From contig NC_019859.2 of NCBI RefSeq assembly GCF_002234675.1, positions 10,257,983 through 10,321,982 on the forward strand: a stretch of DNA of 64,000 nucleotides, in the 5' to 3' direction. The notes under the pieces are model-generated. The model did no database searches. It was given only the letters and a program-made list of their open reading frames with translations, and was not told where the DNA came from. Shown one piece after another: positions 34,934 through 63,489 of this stretch. The DNA is from Oryzias latipes. Its lineage: Eukaryota; Chordata; Actinopteri; Beloniformes; Adrianichthyidae. Each line of letters opens with the position of its first letter. The first letter of the stretch is position 1. The position numbers and the translations under genes were made by a program.

Positions 34934-37304
34934 ATGGGAAACTGTCTATTTTCACAAGGTGCGGATGACCTCTCGCCTCTAAACGAGTCTGAGGGGGGCA
35001 GTCTGCCCGGAGAGCCGACGGTAACACAACAGGTGAGCTTTAAGTTTAAGGTTGTATTAGTTACCTATTTTTTGCTGGTTTCCAAGTACATTTTACTATA
35101 TATACTTTTTTGCATTATATTGACTTGTTTTTTTAAGCCACCAGAGAAAAGTAGTACATGTTATGCAACCAGTCCAAAGAATATATGAAACTTAAAAGGC
35201 TTAAACGATTTTAACACAGTACATGTAAACGTTATGTGTGAGTTTTAGAGCCACGTGACTCTGATTACTTTATCAATTTAAAGACTATCAATATTGGTGT
35301 AATTTTATTGGTCAGCCATAGTTTTAAAGTCTGGAAATTTGTCACAATACCTTCTTATATTTGCAAAAAGAAAAATAACTTCTTGAATATTTACCCCTTT
35401 TTGAAATGTAGTTTCACCTTTGGAGCTCATGGAAACCCTGACATTTATAATGCAACTAAAATTTTATTTAATATAGTCCTCTAGTTGACTAAATTGGGAA
35501 TTTAACACAATAAATGTGTTATTGTGTTTAGTCTATTTATTTGTCTTTTTTTTAGTAGGTCAACTGAAGTGAAATAATAATTAATTCAACCAATCAATTG
35601 TATTTGAAGAGCTCTCATAAAATGCCAGAGCAACCAATGTTCTGTGCAAGTAAAATGTAGATATAAAAAATAAACTAACAATTGACAACTATGGCCTGCT
35701 AAATCTGCTCACTGGAGTAAATTCAATAACATTAACTGAGATCAAATGGATGAATGCTTTAATATGAGAAATCCTTAAAATAAAGGCAATTTTCCAGGCA
35801 TTTCCAACCAACAACAACTCCATTTTTTTTATCACCTAAAGACATGCACAAAACCTAGTGTGTTTTGTTTGTGTTGCTGATTGTGTGGTGAAGGACTTTT
35901 ATAGCAGCGTTATGTTTGGCAAACACATGACTTTTCTGAAAACCCTAAGGGGACTGGAGAATAAACTGTGGGTGTGGAAAACTATCACCCAGAAGGAAAG
36001 TATATGCAGTGGAATATTGATGGTTTTGCTTCAAAAAAATCTGTTTTTAATCACTAGAATCAGATGTTTTTAATACAGTATATTTTATTTTGAGCATTGC
36101 TGCTGTTTAGTGTAATGAACAGACAAAGGTCTGGGAAATAAAAGAGCTACCTCTCCAAAATGATAAGATCCTCTGGTACCAATGAGGTCCAAAGTCTTTC
36201 TCTTCTTTCCATTTAAACCATTTACTTCTGATCGCAAAATAATCTTTGATTTCAGGATCTAGTGTTGACTGTTGAGGACTGGTGTCTTTAGTTGCACTAC
36301 TGGAAATTTTTGAAGTCCTGTAACCCGACTAATATCTCAGAAGGTGTTGTGAGATTGTGCAAAGAAAGTGTTGGTTTTTCCTCAACAGCTGCACAGGCTT
36401 TAACCTGACTAGCAAACCCCCCCCACTGTCTTATCTGACTCCAGGCCTGATGACTATTCTACTGCCGACATGGTTATCAGGTTTATGGCGACTCTATAAA
36501 GTCCACGCAGCTGCTGTCGCTGAAGCAGAAGGAGGGCAGAACTGTTTGATGACATTTTCATAGATCATTAAAATGTGCATTTTGGAGCCGGTTTAGCTCG
36601 TGCTGGTTTGCGGCGCCTTCTGTCCGTGAAACCCAGGTTCAACTCCGGGCTGCTCCCTGTTCCCCTCTCTACTTCTGTGCCGGTCCCAAGCCCGGTTGCC
36701 TTGAGAGGGTTGCGTCAGGAAGGGCATCCGGCGTAAAACATTGCCAAGTTTACCATGCGACTCGTTCGCTGTGGCGACCCCTGATGGGAACAGCCGAAAG
36801 AGAAACAACATTAAAATGTGGTTTTGTATTGATAGATAATCCAATCTGTTTGGTTCGAAATCATCTCCAGGAGCGCAGCCAGCTGGAGTTCCATCCCAAC
36901 CCTGGAGAGAGTCGCCCCGTCAGCCAGCTGACCGAGGAAGAGCAGATCCGGATTGCCCAGCGCATTGGACTCATTCACCACCTTCCCAAGGGCATCTTCA
37001 ACCCCGGCTCTGACCCCTCTGAAAAGAAAGTGATAGAGTACGTTTAAAGGAAGGCGTGCCTCATGTCCATATTCATATAACTGACAAAAATCATCAAGGT
37101 TTTGACCGTGTCCTCAAATCTCTCTTGTGCAGGTGTGTGATCTGCATGATGGATTTTGAGTATGGAGACCCCATTCGGTTTTTGCCCTGCCTTCACATCT
37201 ACCACGTTAGCTGCATCGACCCTTGGCTGATGCGCTCCTTCACCTGCCCCTCCTGCATGGAGCCCGTAGACGCAGCCCTGCTGTCCACCTACGAAACCAA
37301 CTGA
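34934..37304 (+). CDS. rnf11: RING finger protein 11-type E3 ligase subunit lacking the PY motif
   Basis: RNF11 is a small RING-H2 E3 adaptor that partners NEDD4-family ligases, ITCH and the A20 complex in TGF-beta, NF-kB and endosomal sorting. Exons are 34934-35032 (donor GTGAGC), 36871-37037 (donor GTACGT) and 37133-37304, giving 145 residues. The N-terminus MGNCL keeps the myristoylation glycine and palmitoylation cysteine. Conserved blocks follow: QLTEEEQIRIAQRIGLIHHL, CVICMMDFEYGDPIRFLPC, LHIYHVSC, CIDPWLMRSFTCPSCMEP and the VDAALLSTYETN end. All eight RING zinc ligands are visible. Exon 1 ends GEPTVTQQ where typical RNF11, from memory, has EPPPPYQ, so the WW-binding PY motif is absent. 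Probably a divergent rnf11 paralogue; symbol suffix uncertain. Confidence 0.9.
36584..36808 (+). mobile_element. tRNA-derived SINE
   Basis: The head has a tRNA-like A box (GGTTTAGCTCGTGCTGG) and B box (GGTTCAACTCC). The body carries GGAAGGGCATCCGGCGTAAA and TGTGGCGACCCCTGATGGG. Flanking direct repeats CATTAAAATGTG at 36566-36577 and 36809-36820 are identical over 12 bp, showing target duplication and a fairly young insertion. It ends 50 bp before the exon 2 acceptor of the rnf11 gene. Confidence 0.85.
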
Positions 37305-39277: not shown

Positions 39278-40622
39278 TTATAGAGCGTAGAATCCCACAC
39301 TGACTGTAGCCAGAGCCAGAAAAAGCCCCAGCACCATCCTGATGAGCGGGACGTGGAGTGTTTTCGCCTCTCCTGACTTGAAGGTTAAAATCTTCTGCAG
39401 CTTGTTTTCTGTGACGTCCAGCAGCTTCTCAATGTCATCAAAGACCTGCAAGTCAAAGGTCATCTCTTGTCAGCTAATCCGGTTAGAATTTCCTTTCTCT
39501 GCTCAAGCATCACTTCTAACCTGGATGTTGAACTCGAAGGCCCTGACCGCCTCCTCCAGCACGCCGTTCCTCTGCTCCTCCGTCAGCTCCACGCTGTTCA
39601 TTCGGCTGCGGTAGAGCTGCTTGAACAGGTTGGGGCTGGACACTCCAGGGAAGGCAAAGAAGGACAGACCCTCGCTGCTTTTCAGCCCCATGGATTTCTG
39701 GGCAATCCGACCAAGAACCTGGCCTCCAGACAGATCGCCGAGGTAACGGGTGTAAGCGTGGGCCACCAGAAACTCGGGGTACTCTTTGCCGATCTGGGTA
39801 ACCACGCCAAAGACAGGTGTCAATGCAGTTTCACTCTACTGAATGGTTTTCTTATGTTTTATCATATCAAATGTACCTGTCTGAGCCTGTGACAGTATCT
39901 CTTGGTGGCGGCAGGAACAACTATTTTCTCTCTCCAGTTGGTGCCGTAGAAATACTCCAGGTCTTTCTCAATGGACTCCAGCCTGGCCAGTTCGGATGGA
40001 AAGTAAATGGGCGCCACACCAGCATGGTTGGAGTTCCTGCTCAGCTCTTCCTCCAGAGCTTTGTAGATCTCATACAGGGAGCACAGGAGGAGCTGCAGCG
40101 GGTGAAAAAGAAGGATCTTTGGTCAGATTAAGAGCTCGATTAAGAGCAAAAATCTGGGCTGCATATTTTCTAACCTTGTACTGTGGAAGCGTCACTTGTC
40201 CCCGCTGGAAGCTCAGCATTAGCTCTGTGTTTTCTGCTCTGACGTGACTCTCCTTTGTCACCTTCTTGATTTGTTCAGACAGATCCCTAAAAAAATAAAA
40301 ATAAAAGGAGAATGAATCCCATTCAGGGCAGTATGAGACGCATGTGCGTCCATAATGGCAGCTTGGAGGACCATGCAGACTGTTATCTCAGGAGTACAAA
40401 AGTAAAAACCATCACTTAATGCGATTAAAATTCATTTTAAAAGCATCCAGGAACTTTATCAGAAAGTAAAATCCATTGCCTGTTAATAGTCTTGTCCTAT
40501 AAATGGATCGTTTCTGTTAGTAAAAGAGGGGAATTGGATGTGAAAAGGAAAATCTCAGCAGTTTACTCTTACCTGTCAGCAGTCTGCTCTGTTGCTGCTT
40601 GAGTCTTCCTCTCAGTTTCCAT
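39278..40622 (-). CDS. hmox1: Heme oxygenase 1
   Basis: Cleaves heme to biliverdin, CO and ferrous iron at the ER membrane using cytochrome P450 reductase. Exons (minus): 40622-40573, 40286-40175, 40092-39877, 39793-39521 and 39445-39278; every join keeps phase, giving 272 residues, the family's usual length. His31 in KESHVRAE is the likely proximal heme ligand. [19 protein letters not shown] is the heme oxygenase signature, with the distal-side aspartate at about 146. [16 protein letters not shown] is also conserved. The C-terminus [17 protein letters not shown] is the tail anchor. The start METERKTQ lies in the second exon; a noncoding first exon is at about 40812-40760. A possible ATTAAA poly(A) signal on the minus strand is at 39090-39085. 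Confidence 0.95.
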
Positions 40623-50400: not shown

Positions 50401-51125
50401 GCCACTCTGCAGAAATAATGCCCCAGAAAAATACACCGTTTTTTTTATTTTGTCTAAAAATGGCATAATCAAAACCAAAAAGACCACTGGCAACACTTTC
50501 AAAATAGATTCAAAAAATGATTGGAGATGATTGTCTTCCTTTAAATACATGCAGTTGTGCCCATGAAACTTTATGAACAACAAGCTTAACATGTATTTTG
50601 TTTTGTTTTGGTTTACTTTTTTTTTTTTTTTTTTACCCTGAAAATTCTAGTAAAGTAATTTTCTTTCACGACTACATCAACATAACAAGTGTTTCCTGAT
50701 TACTTCAAACCAAACATGCATAGCTTGAAATGCTTGTTTCTGAGGAGTTTCTTTGCCAAATAGTTATTCAAATCAGCTGTTTGCTTTCTATTCGATGAAA
50801 CCAAACAGAACAGATAACCTTTTCTCTACTTGCTAGATGACTTTTTATCTACTATCAGTAAAGAGATCCATTTTCTTTTTCAGGTGTTTATGTTTCTCAG
50901 TGTGGAGAATGTCAGCATATTGTGAAAAGAAAAGCATTTTCTATTTTTCTTTTTCTTGAACACGAATCCACAAAAACTTTTCTAAAATTTGCCTTGGAGG
51001 CAGAAAGTCTGCTGTCTTCTGAATGTGGAAAAAAACTGCTTTGGTTTTTTCAGTTCTCAATTGTGGCATTAAATGTTGATTATTAATTAGGAAACACATT
51101 TCATCCCTGAATTCTCCTTTATGCC
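47459..51125. other. Intergenic region HMGXB4-like / GIMAP-like
   Basis: It contains the TTAA-family copy 7, an AT-rich tetranucleotide (TTTA)n tract near 48195-48240, several T runs and no supported coding exon. A strong donor (ACACA/GTAAGT) at 49372 could end a noncoding first exon of the GTPase gene; no phase-compatible coding join to 51126 exists. Confidence 0.4.
49970..50545 (+). mobile_element. TTAA-flanked transposon, copy 7 (diverged)
   Basis: It starts GATCCACTCCAATGTAAATT. It contains the family blocks GCTCAATTCTGATGCCTCC, CGTCTGAGCTGGCATCTGG, CCAACAGTCCC and CTCTGCAGAAATAATGCCC, and ends near GATTGGAGATGATTG. Both ends have lost the exact TTAA context. Confidence 0.6.
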
Positions 51126-54100
51126 ATGTCAGGAATGAGTGAATACAAGAGGCAGAACTTCAACAGCTCCTCAGACCTGAGGTTGTTTCTTTTGGGGAAC
51201 ATTGGCTGTGGAAAGACGTCGTCTGCTAACACCATCCTTAACCAGCCGTCCTCTCGCTCTGCTGATGACCCCAAAAGCTGCAATCTACGAGAAGCCTTCA
51301 CCGACGGCCGGAGAGTGGCTCTGGTGGAAGCTCCGAGATGGTATTGGGCCGGCGAAAAGGTGGACGACAGCGTCAGAAAGGAGACGGAACAAGCTGTGGC
51401 TCTGATGGAACCAGGACCACATGCTGTTTTGCTTCTGATCCCTGTTAACCAGTTTACTGAGGTTGGTTTTTCCCAACAGAACACGTGTATGTATTCAAGA
51501 TTTGAAAAAAATAAAGTTCAGCTACCATACAGACACATTTTTGTGGAAACCCAGGCAGTGAAATCTTAAATTAAGCTTGATATCATACATTTTTATGTCT
51601 CCTTATTCTTTTTTTGTCCAGATGGAGTCTCGTGTGCCTTCAGAGTTGCGAGAGATGTTTGGGCAGGAAGTGCTGGATCACACTTTGGTGCTGTTGACTT
51701 GTGGAGACTACTTGATGGGAAAATCGGTTGAGGTATTGACAAATGTATAGGTAGCCTCTGCTTAAAGTCATTTTTATTTGATGCACAAGTCAGACACGAA
51801 CCACCAAAAAGAATAAGTAAGTAAGGAAATGCTTTCTAAATGACTAACCCTAACCCTTTGCAGTTTGTTTTTGCAAATCTGCTTTCCACCAATTGGTGTT
51901 TTTCCAGCAAGTGGAAAGGATTTTTTGTGCACAGCAACACTTACCACTTTTGCAAACCGGTCTTAATAGTGCCATCAAATTACCTACATTCAAAAATTAG
52001 GTTTCATGATAGAAATGAAAGTCTGCAAATGTTTTATGTTATTATATTAAAAAGGGGGACTTTGCCTCCAAAGCCCCTCTTTCTTGTACGTTTATATATA
52101 CTGTGTTCTGTTCAAGTGATATTTTAGTACTTTTCAATATCTTTTTTTAAAAATGTGTGCCTAAATTTACTCAAGTCAAATTGTTGGTTTGCAGGAATAC
52201 CTGCAGAAAGAAGACCCAGGATTGAGGCAGATGATCAAGGGTTGTGGTGGAAATTTCCATGTTCTGAATAATCGTAACCCAAAAGACAGAGAGCAGGTCC
52301 GCGAGCTGCTGGAGAAGGTGAGCAATGCAGAATACGAACAACTGGAGTTTGCATCAACTTTGCTTGACATATAGTTGTTTGCGGGAATGGTTTGAATGGA
52401 AATTTGTCACAAAAATTTGAACACGCCTCATTTTCTACTACTTTCTATGTTTGTTATTGTTTGGAATTTTTTGATCTTGTTTAAAAAAAATCCAAGATGG
52501 CAGAAACACTTACACAAGTGAAAACAAAGACTTGTGGTAAATTTCCAAAAAAACAAATATCAAGTCAGAATGGAAGAAAGGCATGAGGTTTAGATGGTTT
52601 GGGTCTGGAACAAAAACCCCTGAGGTTAGGTTTGTGTGTCTTAGTGAGATGGAGTCAAAAGGGCTGGGCTATTCGAATGCTGCATGACTACGTTTAGATA
52701 AAGAGGGGCAGATTTTGATGGATTCATAGAAAACAATTTGAATCTCAGTCGAACTCAAACAGATTTGTAGACTTTATTGGTTAAAGTACAAACCTGAATG
52801 GATACTTAACAATTTTAAATAGTAAATATCGTTTCAAAGTTAAAACCAAAGTGACAAACTAGATAAAGGCAAACCAGCCTGACATTTATTTCAAATTTAA
52901 AGTAAATTAATTTGAAATTAATACTCAATGAAATACATATGTTGTAGAAAGATGCAAGAAATTAAAACTTCAAAAAAAAGATCAGATTTATTAAATTAAT
53001 GTATTAGAATCAGATCTATTCACATTTACATTTTGTCCTATTTTAGATTATTCCTTTATGGAAATATAGATTATTGGGAATTCTGAAGTACTTTTTGTGT
53101 TTAGAAGTTTTTAGATGATTAGCTGCTTGTTTTTTTTTAATTGCAGACCTTGTTTTAAGGGTTAAACAATGTACCGAACTCTCTTTCTCTCCAGTCTGCC
53201 TTCACATGAAAACCTTCCATTTTTCTTAGCATTTTTGTTCTGCTTGAATCCAAAGCTGTGTTTTTGCTTCTTCATTTTCTATGCTTGCAGCAGAGTTTCC
53301 GTTTGAGCGGTTCCCTCTGACTCAAATTTCCACTTAGGTTCCCTTGAACATGTGCACTTCCATTTTCCTTTTTACCCTCCTAAATTCTTCAGAAATAATT
53401 ACCCCAACAGAATGCCAGCTATGATATCAGTTTGCTGAAATGTGGGCGGACCTGCATCACTAAAGTGATGTAACCATCATATCTAGCACTTGGGGTGGGA
53501 CGGGTTCCTGCCATGGTGGGGATCCAGTGCGCATGAGGGTGGTTGCTCCCGGGTTTTTGTCTGACAGCGGGGCTCTTGGAGGCCTAAGTTGGCCGGGCTG
53601 CGGCGCTGTCGGCCGCTGGCTCTGGGGTGGGGATGTCAGGCCTCTTGCCTTTGCTGGAGCATTCAATGTGAACAAGGTACACTCTAAGAAGCACACATTT
53701 TCTTTCAGCCCACCTGCTTACTACTTTTTGCACAAATATAGGCAAGGGTAATGTTTTTACACCCTTCTCCAAGAATATTGTTTATGCAAACTATGTGTGT
53801 GTATCTTTCTGTGTGCATAGTGTGTGAGGTAAAACTTCCATCATCAATGTTTGAATATACTTAAAACCTGTAAACAGTTGTGTTCAGACTATTTGTTGGT
53901 GTGTGTAGGTGAGAACTAAGTCATGCAATTTATTAATGACAGACACTCTTATGTTATGAGTCTGTATCATCATCTTAACCCTAACAGGGTTGCATGGGAT
54001 AGAGCAGTGTTTTTCAATCAGTGTGCCGTGACACACTAGTGTGCCGTGGGAGATGGTCAGGTGTGCCGTGGGAAATTGCCTTCATTCACTGATCTAAAAA

Positions 54101-57100
54101 CATTTTCCATCTCCAGGATTTCAGCTCTTTGTTCATCCAAACAGGCCCTGATAAAACACTGAGTGGTTAGGAATATGAAAGATCATAAAATAGTTTTTTC
54201 TTTGTGTGTATTTGATTCTATTAAAGACATTTTAATAAGAATGACCGTACCGCGATTTAGCCGTAGCTTCAGCTGTTTGCGGAAAAGTCCCGCCCCTTTT
54301 ACTGTCTCCACCAATCATTCTTGGAGGCTTAATGACACGTCATCAGTCTGACCAATCAGAAGTGGTTAAAGTCTTCACTTCCTTGTTCCGATCTGCTCAT
54401 AAAGTCGCTCAGTTCCAACAAAAATACGAGTTAAAGCTCGTCTTCAGCGGTGTAGCTTTCCACTGAATCTGGTGTCAGACCGTGGAACAAGTGAACAAAA
54501 CAATGAAGCTCAGAGACGCAAGTCTTTCTGCGTTCGGTGGCTGTTTGCACTACATCTCCCATGATGCATTGGGTTAAAGTGACAGCGTCTCAGTGCAGAA
54601 TGAGCCTTTCTTTGTAAACGTCTTGAAACCACAACAAACACACATCAAACAGTTTTTAAATCTTTTAACTTAACTTTTATTACATTTTTTAGAAAAAAAC
54701 AGTTGCAACTTCCAGCTTTTTCTGCCACAATTATCACAAAAATGCACGTGAGATTGTGGAAGGGCTGTAGATCAGTACAGACTATGAGTTTCTCGTTTTT
54801 TTGTTTTTTTTTTTGGATGCTGGTGCGCCGCAGGATTTTTGTCAAGGTTAAAGTGTGCCTTGGCTTAAAAAAGGTTGAAAAACAGTGGGATAGAGGGACA
54901 CATTCAATCTAGGTTAACCATGATATAAAAGTAGGAAAAATGCTAGAGAGGTGATACCTTTGCTCTACCCATTCTTTTGAAAACCTATTGGATGATATCA
55001 AGTCCAGCATATCATGTGATTTTCTGCTTGATTTTTATTTTTTTTACCCAGCATGAAAAAAAGGTTATGGTACACATGTTCCATTATTAATAATTACTAT
55101 TGGAATTATTTTGTTTATCAAAACAAATGTTTTCACAGTTAAAAGGAAAATAAGTGAAGCAAATAATTCCAAAAATGAACCTAATTTCAAATTCTAACCG
55201 TTTATTTAAGATTTAATTTGGAAATTAGGGGGCGGGGACATGAGAAAATCTTTTTGTGTTTTGCAATTTTGGTATTTTGGAATATTTTCTTTGTAGATTT
55301 GGACTCATGACGAGTAAATTTATTCAGAGATTACATTTTTTAATATTTCATTTGTGTATTATTTAAAATAGGATGGATGGGACATACAATGTTCTTAAAG
55401 TCTGGAATAAGCCTTGAAATCAGCCTCCAAGGCTGTTAATGTGACAATTCTCAACACTTTTGTGACAAATATTACTTTTATTAAAGGTGGACCGCATGGT
55501 GGCGAAAAATGGAGTATTCAATATGAAAACTGCTGAAACCAGACAGCTGAACAGTCAAATCGAAGACCAAGAAGAAGAACAAGAAGAAGAAGAAGAAGAA
55601 GAAGAAGAAGAAGAAGAAGAAGAGGAACAAGGACAAGAAGAGGAAGAGGAGGAACAAGAACAAGAAGAAGAAGAAGACGAGAGATACTTGTTGGAATTAA
55701 TGCAAGATCAGTTGCTGGGGAGAAGTGAGACATTAGCTTTGAACAGAATTTTAGGCACGGGTGCACTTGAAGTGGTAGTTGAAGAGGAGGAAGAAGAAAA
55801 CGATGATGATGATGAAGAAAAAGAAGAGCCCATCGTACCTTTGAAAATGACAAACGTTAAACAAGTGATTAATAAAAGGGATGGAAGTATGGGTGAAGCT
55901 CGAGTGCCCAATGGGTTTCCTTCATCTCCAGAACCAGAGCTGCAATCGCATTCGAAGTCTTTTGATGACCCACAGCTGAACAGCACTCTAAGTTCACTGA
56001 AAGCAGGTACATGTCAATGCACGAAGGCACATCACTTTCTTTCCAGAGGTTACAAACAACTCACAATAGTGAATGCAACTCCTCCTATTTTCCTGTAGAT
56101 GGAGGTCTTCTCTCAAAAATATCTGAGATTGTAACATCTTCAAGAACCCCAGCTTCCAGTAGGTTTCTTGACTTTGTCATCTTGTGCTATTCTTTTACAT
56201 TATTTACTCTTGTGGACGTTAAAGTTTTCCATGTTTCTTTGAATTTTATTTGCAGTTGAAAGCAGAAGCAGCAGTGTTGATGGAGCAGCACCTCAACCGT
56301 CTCCTGTTTTTTCTAATCCTCATTCACCCATCTTCGTCTCCACCACTCAACCGTTGTCAAACTTGTCCCCCTCTGCTTCAATATGTTCTCCATCCTTCTC
56401 GTCCTACCCGATGCCTTCCGCTTCGTCTTCTCCGGAGCTTCGTCTGATTTTGCTCGGTCGATCCGGAGCAGGGAAGAGTTCAGTCGGGAACAGCATTCTG
56501 GGGCAGAATGTCTTCAGATCTGAGTCAGACAGCTTTACCGCAGTCACTCAGAAGTGTGAGAAAAGGAAGGCAGTGGTTGAAGCACAAAAGGTTTGTGTTT
56601 AAAACATTTTAAGCTTTGAATCCTTGCTTACCTCACTCAGAATTGTCAAAAGATTTCAATTTTTGTTTGTAGTTTTCTGACAAATAAAATGTTTTCTTGC
56701 TGTCTTTTTTCTCTTCTGCAGGTGGCAGTAGTGGACACTTCTGATTGGTTTAATTCAGAGCAAACCCCTGAGGAAGTGCGAGCTCAGATCTCCTCTTGTG
56801 TTGCACTGTCCACCCCCGGCCCTCACGCCTTCCTGCTGTGCGTCCCGTTGGACCAACCTGCAAAAACCGAGCTGCAGGCTCTGGAAGCCATGGAGAAGGT
56901 TTTTGGCCCAGATGCAGTGACAAAACACACCATTGTCCTCTTCACCTACGCCGATCGCCTGAGGGACAGTGGGATGATTGGGAATGGCGGCGTGGAGGCC
57001 TACATAGCGAATCAAAGGGGGGATTTGTTGAAGCTTGTTGAAAAGTGCAGGGACAGGTTCCAGATCATGGAGAGGGGTCAAAGGGAGAAGAAGAGTGTGG

Positions 57101-58116
57101 CTGATCTATTCACTTTGGTGGCGCTAACAGTGAAAGAAGCTGGAGGACAATACTTTTGTTCTCCTGCTTTTCTGGAGGCAGAGAACAAAGTGAAACAAAA
57201 GCAACTAGACCTCGTAAGAGAGAGGAGAGAAAAAGAACTAGACCAAAAAACTGTAAAAAAGGCTCAATTGCTCAGCCCAAAACGTAGGTCTTTATTTGAG
57301 ACAGAAGATGAGCTTGAGGAAATGAGGGATGAGGCAGAGATGAGTGTAAGTCTGACTAGTATGGACTGCATTTCTCTACTTACAATTTCTGACTTGTCCC
57401 CTTCTTTTCTGAATTCTCTTAAAGAGAAAATGGAGACTAGTATGAAGATGCTTCCTAAACTGACGTCAGATAGCTCAGTGCGACTTGAAGAAACAAGGAA
57501 GCAGCAAAGCAGTCCGGTGTTGGCAATCCAACAGATGGTGGCAGACGGTTCCCTGTGGGGAAAGGTGGGATCTACTGCAGGTCATGTTTCCAGAGCGGTA
57601 GGAGATAAGGTTCCAAGGGTAGTGGCAAATGGTTCCTCATGGTTGGGATTCAGAGCTAGAGCAGTGGCAGGGAGTCCAATGTGGGAGAAATTGGGGGCTG
57701 GTACCAAAACTGGAGCTAAACTGGTGGCAGACGGGTCGTTAAGAGTTGGAGCCGGGATTGGTGCTGGTGCAATGCAGGTTGCACAGAGTCCCATGTGGGG
57801 CAAGATGGGCTCCGGGGCAAAAGCAGGGGTCACAATGATGGCTGAGAGCTCACTGTGGGAGAGAATGGGAAACGTTGCTAGACAGGTTCCAAAAATAGTG
57901 TTTGCAGCTGGGCTGCTAGGACTGGTGCTCGGTGTGTTTTTTGGTGGACTGTTTTGGGGAATTGTCGGAGCCGCTGCTGGATCTGCAGCATCTGAGATGA
58001 CCCGACAAAAATTCATCAGCAGAAATTCTTCAGAGGAGACGTCTGAAGCTGCAAGAAACATGGAGAAAAGCACGTGCAACAGTGCAGATGGAGGGAAAAG
58101 TCTGAAATACGAATGA
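51126..58116 (+). CDS. Tandem AIG1/GIMAP-type GTPase with acidic linker and C-terminal repeat-membrane module
   Basis: Seven exons join in frame: 51126-51461, 51622-51732, 52195-52317, 55487-56006, 56099-56158, 56256-56590, 56722-58116; 959 residues. Domain 1 (about 17-200): P-loop GNIGCGKTS at 24-32, TCGD at 138-141 and HVLNN at 171-175; exon 3 ends RELLEK and exon 4 resumes VDRMVAKNG, normal GIMAP sequence. Linker (about 216-440): two acidic runs, one encoded by a GAA microsatellite, then a Ser/Pro-rich part. Domain 2 (about 445-650): P-loop GRSGAGKSS at 451-459, TPGPHAFLLCVPLD, FTYADRL. Then a charged helix, about six 18-residue repeats (766-886) and a hydrophobic glycine-rich segment near 888-920. 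GIMAPs are membrane-associated immune GTPases. Start Met at residue 1 or 4; it follows GCC, a fair context. AATAAA at 58474-58479. Confidence 0.82.
53460..53690. repeat. GC-rich block of unknown nature in AT-rich intron
   Basis: The composition changes sharply to G/C-rich with GGGTGGGACGGG and GGCCGGGCTGCGGCGC type words, then returns to AT-rich. It has no convincing gene signal. It may be an inserted repeat; no second copy is in the window. Confidence 0.35.
54005..54887 (+). mobile_element. hAT-type nonautonomous transposon, copy B
   Basis: Same family as 6714-7590: the left end is CAGTGTTTTTCAATC, the right end GGTTGAAAAACAGTG. Flanking 8-mers GGATAGAG at 53997-54004 and 54888-54895 are identical. 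It is 883 bp and aligns along its whole length with copy A at roughly nine bases in ten. Same orientation, independent insertion. Confidence 0.9.
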
Positions 58117-60841
58117 AGAACTCAATGTAGCATGGATTGAATACATACATTTAATTTAGCAAATTAAAAAAATGTACCTATGCTCAACTGACTCCATTAG
58201 AATATAGTATTTATTTTGTCATTCTTTTAGATACAAAAAACTTTTAAATTAAGTTCAAAGATTGAAATCCCCTATTCAGTTATGGATCGAACTAATTTGT
58301 TTTTGTATAAAAGCATCAGAGAGAAAAAGAAAATCCATGTATATGTTTATTTGCAGAACTTTTTTCTTAATTTGTAAATACCTCTTTTTAAATACCTTCT
58401 TTTTTGGGGAATTGTCTATATTATGCATTGTGTACATTCTATACTCTTTAATCTGTGCCTCATTACAATGAACAATAAAATATTTTTGCTGGACATTCAT
58501 ATGAACGAAATCCTACAAAATAAAACAAATTAAGGGTATCTTTTTTCAAAAACTACCTTTTTTTCCCCTCTTTTCTCAATTTTATTTCCTGTAAGTTGGT
58601 CTGATGGTTTAAATTAGGAACCTCACTTGAATGTTATAAACCTTAAACTTTGACAAAGCAGTAAAAAGAAATCATTACTGTTGTGCTTGGACTTGGATTA
58701 CCCCAAAAACTCTTCTGTTGGTCAATTACAGGTATACAGTGTAATAGCACTTTCAAGACAATTCGGCTTTACCAGAATTCTCCGGACTAACTAGGCGGAT
58801 TATGACTATCATTAAAAATAAAGCTCTTTCTAATTTTTTTTCCTGACAGCTTTTTGTAGCGCTTTGAGAAGATCTGTTTTGAACTGGTGCTTTATAGTTT
58901 GTTTTCTGGCTTAGACGCGTGGAAGTAGTATTATTATCTCTCAGTCCCATGTTGGCCGGTGTTGCCCGGCCCCTAAGATAAACGCCAAGCCTTTACAACC
59001 AACAGATCTGGAGCACCAGATTTTTACCGGAGCAAAACTATTTACATGAATTTCAATGTTGCTTGTCAAGAAGTCTCCGCCTTCACACGTTTCAGGAATG
59101 GGTGGACTAAAGACCAAGCTTCTAGTATCATTTCATTATTTTTAGGGAATTTTTTCTTCTCAATTTCCTAATTTTTCAGTAATTTTTTTTAATATGTATT
59201 TAGGAACATCCTATCTTTTTCTGTTTCATTTTGTTACACAAAAAGAAACCCACTCTAAAATGTGTTGTCATGTTCTGATCTATTTTTTTATGACAAGTAA
59301 TTTTGGTTGGGTGTATTACATCGGGTAAAAATTACCCATCCAAATAGGATGGTGTAACTTTTTATAGCCAAAGTGTTTTAGGGTTAAAGTAGAAACAATT
59401 TTCTAGTAAAGTTAACAATCATTTAGATTGTGCTTTTGAAACTCATTCAGAGCAGTATGATAAAACAGAGTGAGATACAGTATGTTGATGTATTATGATG
59501 CTAATATCTAACACAAGGAACGCCCCATGTGTACTTTACAAATGTATTTTGTAAAAGCATTAGTGAGGAAAGATTGAATTAAAAAAAAACATTTGACCTC
59601 TGTAGTGGGGTGAAAAAAGGGAGGGGTCAGTGCCGCAGATGAAGCCGCAGCAGCAGTGTTGTGAAAGTGACTCTTCCTGTTATGTGATCCTGAAACCAAG
59701 TGCACATGGGTTCCCTAAACATCCTGATGGCTTTTTTCTGTTTTTTCTCTTTTATCCAACTCTCTCCCTTCTTCAATTAAAACGAACGCATACATACACC
59801 ACCACACCTTCAGGAAGCTCGTTAGCCATCAATGAGACAGCACTAACTGTAGCTATATCCTGGCACCAGCGCAGAGCTGATCATGCACGCTGGTAGATTG
59901 CGCTGCTGCAGCTGCAACTTTCCCCCTGCACACTTTTTAGCCTTCCTCCACCAAGCTGAACCCCATTTTTAACCACATCCCACATCCATGCAGATCTTCC
60001 TCAGTTCAACCACACGCCCCAAACTGTTGGCTGTCACATAAATCTTTGTCTAGTTCAGCCGCATGTACTTTGCTTTTTTTGTGCAGAATTTGCCTCCAGG
60101 TTACAGAGCCCTGGATATGACGGGAAAAAAATTGTTCCTTCATTTTACTAATTTTGTGGGCACGAATTAGTGTTTTTTTTACAATGAGCATTAGCATTTC
60201 GTGACATTAAATTAACATTTTGTGTCTGAAAATGAGTATTTTTGGTACCAATTAGCATTTTGTGGGCACAAATTGGCATTTTGTGACATTAAATAAGCAT
60301 TTTGTATGCACAAGTTGGTATTTTGTGGCTGCAATTGTGTACTTTGGAGCCACAACTGCAGCAGACTGACGACTTGTTCAGGGTGTACACTGTCTTTGCC
60401 CAACAGTTGCTGGGCTGGCTCCAGCAGCCCAATGACCCCTAAAGGGATTCAGCGGGTTCTGAAGTTGAATGGATGGAGTATGTAAAGATTCATTTTTGAA
60501 AATGTGGTTTCACTTAAAAATATTCACAATAGATATGCAAAGAAAGATTAGGGGGATTTCCAAGTGTGCTGACTGATCTGCTATGGAACAGTGCTTATTG
60601 TAATGGGCTTAGAGTAAACTTGGAAAGGGTCTGAATGTTCCTGAACTGAAGGCAACAAAACATTTGCACATATTGAGTAACTGTGCTGACAATGAGCAGT
60701 CTTTAGCAGAGTAAGAGGATGTTAAAAAAGGAACAGCAAACTAAGGCCCACTTTATTTTTGTCTGGTATGAGTGTGTCACAACTTCAGGGTATTGTCATC
60801 CACTCAGCAGAGACACTAAATGTGGCAAAGCATGTAGGATG
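58117..60841. other. 3' UTR of the GIMAP-like gene, then intergenic DNA
   Basis: The UTR runs to about 58500. Beyond that is AT-rich sequence with no exon seen, a possible weak repeat near 58950-59040 (GTTGCCCGGCCCC) and a minisatellite-like tract near 60140-60350. Confidence 0.5.
60140..60350. repeat. Degenerate minisatellite (about 20-bp unit)
   Basis: The words GGCACAAATT, AGCATTTTGTG and TTTTGTGACATTAAAT recur at roughly 20-bp spacing about eight times with many substitutions. Confidence 0.6.
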
Positions 60842-61937
60842 TAAACTATATTACCAAAATAATTGACTCACCCATCTAAATGATCAGAATCAGGTGTCCT
60901 AATCACTTGGCCTGGCCACAGGTGCATAAAATCAAGCTCTCAGGCATGCAGACTGTTTTTACAAACATTAGTGAAAGAATGGGCCGCTGTCAGGAGCTCA
61001 GTGAATTCCAGCGTGGAACTGCCATAGGATGCCACCTATGCAACAAATCCAGTGGTAAAATTTCCTCACTCCTAAATATTCCACAGTCAACTGTCAGTTC
61101 CAGCAGAACAAAATGGAAGAGATTGGGAACAACAGCAACGAAGTGGAAGGCCATGTAAACTCATAGAGAGGGGTCAGCAGATGCTGAAGGGCATAGTGCA
61201 AAGTGGTCGCAGACTTTCTGCACAGTAAATTGCTACAGAGCGCCAATATTCATTTGACCTTCAGATTAGCCCAAGTACAGAACGCAGAGAGCTTCATAGA
61301 ATCGATTTCCATGGCCGAGCAGCTGCATCCAAGCAGTGGTGTAAAGCACACCGCCACTGGACTCTAGAAAAGTAGAGATGCCTTCTCTGGAGGGAAGAAT
61401 CGCGCTGTTCCATCTGGCAATCTGATGGATGAGTCTGGGTTTGGAGGTTGCTAGGAGAACGGTACATTTCAGACTGCATTGTGCCGAGTGTGAAATTTGG
61501 TGGAGGAGGAATTATGATGTGGGGTTGTTTTTTTTAGTTAGTTCCAGTGAGAGGAACCCCCTAATGCTTTATACCAAAACATTTTGGACAACCCCATGTC
61601 ACCAGTCTGGTGTGAATAAACCTGACAGGCCTGCACAGAGTCCTGACCTGAACCCGATTGAACACCTTTAGGATGAATTAGAGTGGAGACTGAGAGCCAG
61701 GCCTTCTCCACCAGCATCAGTGTGTGACCTCACCAATGTGCTTCTGGAAGAATGGTCAAAATTCCTATAAACACACTCCTTGACCTTGTGGACAGCCTTC
61801 CCAGAAGAGTTGAAGCTGTAATGGCTGCAAAAGGTGGACCAACATCTTTTTGAACTCTATGGAATAGAAATAGGATGGCACCTCAGTTCATATGTGAGTC
61901 AAACCAGGTGAGCCAATACATTTGAGAATTTAGTGTA
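60842..61937 (+). mobile_element. Tc1-like DNA transposon, decayed
   Basis: The left end TAAACTATATTACCAAAAT and the inverted right end TACACTAAATTCTCAAATG (minus strand) start at TA dinucleotides, the Tc1/mariner target. Inside, plus-strand frames show MGRCQELSEFQRG, then LLNIPQSTVSS (helix-turn-helix), VKFGGGG/MMWGC-like codons, and RPAQSPDLNPIEHL close to the catalytic C-terminus. The reading frame is broken several times, so the copy is inactive. About 1.1 kb. It lies between the GIMAP-like gene and lyl1. Confidence 0.85.
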
Positions 61938-62375: not shown

Positions 62376-63489
62376 TCACCGCTCATCATTAGTGGATGCC
62401 ACCATCCTTATTTGACTTTTGACCTTTCCCAAAATGCTGTGGGTAACCATAGAGGTCTTGACCCCGAGGCTTTCCTCACTGTCTGTGTCGCCATAGCAAC
62501 TGGAGGTTGATGGGGAATTAGCCAGGGCAATGACAGAGTCTGTGGAGTCTCTATGGTTCGTCACAGCAGCAGCACGGGCTGTTTCTGGTGAAGTTATGGT
62601 CTGGAAAAGAGACTTTTGTTTGCTGCTCTCCGTGCCAACAGCAGGGCTCTCATCCTCTGCCCCTTCCTCCGTGGAGTTGCCGCTCTTGCCCTGGGCCTGG
62701 TCATTGAGCAGGGTGACTAAAAAGTCGATGTACTTCACAGCCAGACGCAGGATTTCATTTTTGCTGAGCTTCTTGTCGGGTGGGTGTGTGGGGATTAATT
62801 TTCTCAGCTCAGAAAACGCTCCGTTCACATTCTGCTGTCGCCAGCGCTCACGGCTGTTGGTGAAGACGCGGCGAGCCAGTTTCTGAGGAGGGCCTGTCAG
62901 AAATACATTAACACTGCATAAGAGCCCAAGATATTGCAAGATAACAGAATATATGTATGTTTTTTCATGTTAGGAATAAAAACATAAAGGGTTTTTCTGC
63001 TCTGATGGGTTGCCAAAACCTGAAGTAAAGCCACTTTGCAAGTACTTATTACTGAACCATAAAATAAATCCTTTAATCTTCATTTTTAGTCTCTAACATA
63101 GAAATAGTGGCCTTTATCCTTCTTTAAAGAAAGATTGAAAAGCATTTAATCCACCTGCTTTTCTGTTTTAAAAAATGTCTTACACTTTTGTGAATTCTAT
63201 ATTTTTTAATCATTGCATTACTTTATTTCTGAAATAAGTTTGACCTGTGTGATTTAATTTACTGTCTACAATTAATGCTTGAAATAAACCAATAAATCAA
63301 ATTAAACAATAAAAAGCAATACTGTATATAATACTGTAAATATTGGTGTGTAAGGTATGAAAGTAGTTTTTGTTTTTTCTCAGACACCTACATTCGGAGA
63401 TCTCCATCTCATATTGTGATGACGGCCTCCTCTTGATGCGACTGTTGTTGATGATGCTATAGCTTCCACCTGATGGTCCCAGGTAAGAG
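62376..63489 (-). CDS. lyl1: LYL1 basic helix-loop-helix factor, last two exons
   Basis: SCL/TAL-family bHLH factor acting with E proteins, LMO2 and GATA factors in blood and vessel development. Exons (minus): 63489-63393 reads [20 protein letters not shown] then [12 protein letters not shown] with donor GTAGGT; 62893-62376 reads [59 protein letters not shown], then TLLNDQ and a Ser-rich tail to the stop. The two join through one shared codon (Cys). The [10 protein letters not shown] and YLGPSGG wording favours LYL1 over TAL1, as does the nfix neighbourhood (NFIX and LYL1 adjoin on human 19p13). Exons for the N-terminus lie beyond base 64000 or are unrecognised in 63490-64000. Confidence 0.9.
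62894..63392. other. lyl1 intron
   Basis: AT-rich, with no other feature noticed. Confidence 0.6.

Follow-up and report, generated by a model that had tools for sequence, protein, structure and literature searches.

GIMAP proteins are described as pairing through their G domains in a GTP-dependent way, in the manner of septins and dynamins, and some members of the family are held at membranes by their C-termini (PMC8201404, PMC4774019, PMC9881219). In the same accounts, GIMAP2 sits on lipid droplets via a double hydrophobic C-terminus (PMC8201404); its dimerisation is driven by GTP and its hydrolysis is promoted by GIMAP7 (PMC8201404, PMC9881219, PMC4774019). Chains that carry several AIG1 domains are represented by mammalian GIMAP8, which has three (PMC3100574, PMC8201404, PMC4201521), and, in the snail Biomphalaria glabrata, by arrangements that keep two AIG1 domains apart (PMC7053062). 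The gene studied here resembles both, the likeness to the snail forms being one of description and the latter differing in being invertebrate. Compared with the published description of GIMAP8, it is distinguished by two domains instead of three, which are split by introns, by a long acidic linker, by repeats and by an anchor-like tail. With GIMAP2 it shares an AIG1 domain and a hydrophobic C-terminus, whereas GIMAP2 has one domain and a double hydrophobic segment (PMC8201404). The open-access literature, searched for chains with two AIG1 domains, gave two papers on snails and none on fish among those listed. Within a family this well known the gene stands out as unusual, and its putative immune role is read from family membership only.

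The gene lies on the forward strand of the window (the whole stretch of 64,000 nucleotides analysed, C1:10257983-10321982). Its sequence and gene model were confirmed, and most likely represent one gene encoding one protein with two AIG1 domains. Joined together, seven exons give a single open frame of 959 amino acids and a stop, with GT-AG borders at all six introns. The first AIG1 domain is spread over exon 1 (51126..51461, coding), with the P-loop GNIGCGKT and an altered switch II, EAPRWY; exon 2 (51622..51732), with LLTCGDYL, which looks G4-like by eye; exon 3 (52195..52317), which holds the G5 region by eye and ends with RELLEK; and the beginning of exon 4 (55487..56006), which supplies the final part of the domain (VDRMVAKNG) before entering the acidic linker. 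Exon 5 (56099..56158) is a 60-nt exon of phase 1-1 and could therefore be skipped without loss of the frame. Exon 6 (56256..56590) contains the Ser/Pro-rich end of the linker followed by the start of AIG1 domain 2 with the P-loop GRSGAGKS, and exon 7 (56722..58116) encodes the remainder of this domain, a charged stretch, the repeats, a hydrophobic segment and the stop. The preliminary description had placed both P-loops on one model of about 959 residues, with RELLEK continuing into VDRMVAKNG in the same phase, and this holds: the two junctions that it gave, 52317>55487 and 56590>56722, are exact and of phase 0. Junctions 56006>56099 and 56158>56256, both of phase 1, complete the link between the domains. 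The four junctions that fall within domains are gapless when set against 42/42, 39/42, 42/42 and 42/42 of the distinct AIG1 domains found elsewhere in the genome (51, 46, 51 and 51 of 51 AIG1 sequences before removal of repeats from overlapping loci). At the 5' end, inspection of positions 51120-51140 by eye revealed a cag at 51130-51132, a possible splice acceptor closely followed by another in-frame ATG (51135), which suggests an upstream untranslated exon. The start may thus be three residues further downstream, giving a predicted protein of about 956-959 residues. On the 3' side, the nearest AATAAA after the stop is a candidate poly(A) signal at 58474..58479; AATAAA/ATTAAA also occur within introns 1, 2, 3 and 6.

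The assignment of both domains is strong. The whole 959-residue protein yields two AIG1 stretches totalling 268.7 bits (E 3.7e-80; Pfam AIG1, PF04548, curated cut-off 27 bits), and splicing raises the score of domain 1 to 124.9 bits (E 3.6e-36) versus 44.9 bits for the match in the first exon alone. Both domains match the solved structures of GIMAP1, 2, 4, 5 and 7 in PDB alignments, GIMAP2 being the best such match of domain 1. The G1 P-loop, GxxxxGK[ST], is intact in both. The G3 motif DTPG is missing from both, being replaced by EAPRWY/EAPRW in domain 1 and DTSDWF/DTSDW in domain 2. As DTPG is present in 29 of the 49 distinct AIG1 sequences of the genome with letters at that site, it is typical of AIG1 rather than defining, and the Pfam model does not demand it; its absence from both domains nevertheless lowers any claim of catalysis. 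By eye, G4, G5 and the conserved box appear present in domain 1 (LLTCGDYL, CGGNFHVLNN) and altered in domain 2 (LFTYADRL, CRDRFQIM). Under the stricter rule given in one account, a domain without a conserved motif counts as a partial AIG (PMC7053062), and domain 1 might be classed as such. A second change concerns a column that carries arginine in 14 of the 50 distinct sequences with a letter there, and glutamine in both domains of the window gene. We take this column to be that of the trans-acting, catalytic Arg103 of GIMAP7. A GIMAP7-type arginine is thus absent from both domains, the PDB alignments that place arginine against the glutamine being those with GIMAP2, 4 and 5, and not with GIMAP7. 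Four entries have glutamine at this column, namely the two window domains and both entries (model and exon) of the one-domain relative L011; in L009 and L012 a glutamine is inserted beside the column, so that the pattern depends on the alignment. What the switch II and arginine changes would mean for function is read from these motifs.

A glutamate-rich linker had been noted in the preliminary description, and the composition bears it out: its acidic core (aa 214-305, 55556..55831, forward strand) holds 44 Glu and 7 Asp in 92 residues and is probably disordered. Inside this core, an imperfect GAA triplet tract spans 55569-55677 (codons GAA 25, CAA 5, GAG 4, GGA 1 and GAC 1). Coding signal was gauged with a codon score. 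Its training set consisted of 12,040 codons from 31 further AIG1 frames, among them a few cases where overlapping loci contribute the same gene twice. Exons 1-4, exon 7 and that part of exon 6 which belongs to the domain show a coding signal; the GAA tract of exon 4 was left out of the score, and the signal is found on both its sides. Exon 5, the weakest exon, has no clear coding signal by this score (0.29 of null windows at or above the observed value), nor has exon 6 over its opening 56 codons (0.26 of null windows), where another frame scores slightly higher (-0.072 versus -0.104). The score depends on the amino-acid composition of AIG1 proteins, which makes it a poor judge of Ser/Pro-rich stretches. 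Since exon 4 carries both the acidic linker and the end of domain 1, the linker is tied to this domain; its predicted tie to domain 2, through splice sites, frame and order, is weaker.

The C-terminal half has features beyond those in the preliminary description. Between domain 2 and the repeats lies the charged stretch, followed by C-terminal repeats (aa 758-885, 57508..57891, forward strand) with a period of 38 residues, in which two half-units of about 18-20 residues can be seen by eye; the lag-38 score exceeded the best lag in each of 1000 shuffles (0/1000 as high). The repeats run into a glycine-rich, anchor-like hydrophobic segment (aa 883-915, 57883..57981, forward strand), recognised by hydropathy and by a homologous tail in L011. 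Its mean hydropathy reaches 2.43 per 19 residues, and 33 residues of the tail lie under windows above 1.6. A hydrophobic C-terminal segment like that of GIMAP2 is thus present, as one stretch. GIMAP2 itself presumably has neither an acidic linker nor 38-residue repeats. Matches in the tail to Pfam DUF456 (E 0.0023) and to NCBIfam thylo_ssl2009 (E 0.009 and 0.0053) fall under the cut-off and were dismissed as chance hits on a glycine-rich hydrophobic stretch.

The Pfam AIG1 search of the genome (734,051,031 bases in 25 contigs) gave at least 55 match places, three of them within the two-domain gene, and 33 loci around such matches were examined for relatives. Four distinct single open frames among them carry two to three AIG1 domains (L001, also seen as L014; L006, also seen as L015; L013; and L017), L001 being another gene of the same genome with three. 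One of them, L017 (L017:2035-7344, reverse strand; C18:18.754-18.759 Mb), is a single frame of 1,769 residues whose two ends are AIG1 domains, separated by a charged stretch of more than 1,300 residues that looks like coiled coil by eye; its Pfam matches are AIG1 and a weak MMR_HSR1 only. Like the window gene, it has two AIG1 domains on one chain with a long charged stretch between; unlike it, its second domain is C-terminal, introns are absent and, by eye, there is no anchor-like tail. By eye, L009/L010 and L012 apparently spread two AIG1 domains across neighbouring open frames, L009/L010 with a short E/R-rich linker; L012 may be damaged. A two-domain plan with a charged linker is therefore not unique in this genome. 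The preliminary description was right in assigning an acidic linker and a pair of GIMAP-type domains to one gene model, but its view that a linker of this kind is missing from multi-domain forms is not supported, in the light of L017 and, by eye, of L009/L010. Elsewhere in the genome, three pairs of AIG1 matches with equal scores lie about 38-40 kb apart (C4:4078544-4083792 versus 4118325-4121443), reflecting a recent duplication or else an artefact of assembly.

Domain 2 has a relative in L011 (C8, 21.07 Mb; L011:4427-5891), a one-domain GIMAP whose P-loop is degenerate (GPADAGRK) and whose DTPG is replaced by SSPAW; it is likely a pseudo-GTPase. It groups with domain 2 in the tree (99/96), has an intron at the same alignment column, 72, and carries a homologous tail (21/52 identical, 40%, E 7e-10, in a single BLAST comparison). 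MAFFT aligned the L011 terminus with the first repeat rather than with the hydrophobic segment of the window gene; the local BLAST alignment was preferred by choice. L007 gave a weak match to the tail (E 0.001, no composition correction), which was left out of the count. L011 differs from the window gene in its single domain and, by eye, in having neither acidic linker nor repeats. As for the origin of the pair, domains 1 and 2 are not adjacent in the free tree, and their intron columns differ (134, 181 and 241 in domain 1 versus 72 in domain 2). A clade of domain 1, domain 2 and L011 was not rejected (p-AU 0.519, with a slightly higher likelihood), nor was a clade of the two domains without L011 (p-AU 0.141). 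An internal tandem duplication is one possible source of the pair.

These data bear on how the locus is to be read. The weak coding signal of exon 5 and of the Ser/Pro-rich start of exon 6 leaves room for two transcription units or isoforms: a short domain-1 protein, with or without the acidic stretch, ending after read-through of exon 3 or 4, and a separate membrane-anchored one-domain protein, similar to L011, starting near exon 6. Stops are indeed met at 52374 when exon 3 is read through and at 56098 when exon 4 is read beyond its donor, the latter making a shorter isoform possible; intron 3 contains four ATTAAA; an in-frame ATG lies directly upstream of domain 2; and domain 2 groups with L011, a one-domain paralogue with the same type of tail. 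We nonetheless consider this arrangement unlikely, given that all six introns are GT-AG and frame-compatible, that the end of domain 1 shares an exon with the acidic linker and that further frames with two to three AIG1 domains exist in the genome. Moreover, no AATAAA/ATTAAA occurs within 55871-56683, so none follows soon after the 56098 stop, and the start context of the ATG before domain 2 is weak by eye.

One protein could also be soluble, its hydrophobic segment serving as an oligomerisation or packing element and its domains forming an intramolecular dimer in the cytosol. The L011 counterpart of the tail fits such a role, being glycine-rich and weakly hydrophobic (best 19-residue mean 1.76), but the higher hydropathy of the window gene's own segment and the length over which it extends make a soluble protein quite improbable, all the more as membrane association is described for GIMAP1, 2, 3 and 5 (PMC8201404). 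The loss of switch II in domain 1, where EAPRWY replaces DTPG, together with the faint coding signal of exon 5 and the exon 6 start and the imperfection of the GAA tract, might finally be signs of a decaying gene with a drifting middle, from which no full protein is made. Such decay is very hard to reconcile with 959 codons over seven exons without a stop, with the coding signal of exons 1-4 and 7 and with two intact P-loops, and we regard it as the least probable reading.

We tentatively favour, with a confidence a little short of even, a membrane-anchored tethered GIMAP pair: one chain of about 956-959 residues whose two GTPase domains would act as a GTP-dependent scaffold, a function proposed from sequence features. 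The hydrophobic tail would anchor the protein in an internal membrane, both G domains facing the cytosol. Upon GTP binding, the G domains would pair via a septin/dynamin-type G interface, either within or between molecules. The glutamine in place of GIMAP7 Arg103 in both domains, together with the abnormal switch II of domain 1, suggests slow self-hydrolysis, which would result in a scaffold or tether that persists at the membrane until turned off by a partner GIMAP. Anchoring, pairing and slow hydrolysis are all predicted properties of this protein. A more elaborate form of the proposal is rather doubtful: here, a switch-impaired and a more normal G domain would be a built-in pair connected through some 245 residues of acidic tether, the repeats and a glycine-rich hydrophobic hairpin would hold the protein on a membrane, and the GTP-locked chain would crosslink membranes or lipid droplets. 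GIMAPs are thought to act by G-domain pairing on membranes, and their partners are hard to catch in cells. A natural protein that combines two differing G domains with an anchor-like tail would offer a test of which of them binds, which hydrolyses and whether pairing is intramolecular. Besides, the gene adds to the multi-domain AIG1 forms of one fish genome.

Several other elements were observed in the window. Within intron 3, positions 54005-54887 are occupied by an element without an evident gene, bounded by near-matching inverted ends that start with CAGTGTTTTTCAA and CACTGTTTTTCAA and by an 8-base flank, GGATAGAG, on both sides; we assume it to be hAT-like. Stretches at 60880-61700 resemble, by eye, remnants of a Tc1-type transposase. 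Neighbours of the gene include a heme oxygenase (39503-39835, reverse strand; Pfam E 1.9e-34), a bHLH factor that appears TAL1/LYL1-like by eye (62376-62969, reverse strand; Pfam E 5.8e-20) and, at 36553-37047 on the forward strand, a stretch with no Pfam match that looks RNF11-like by eye.
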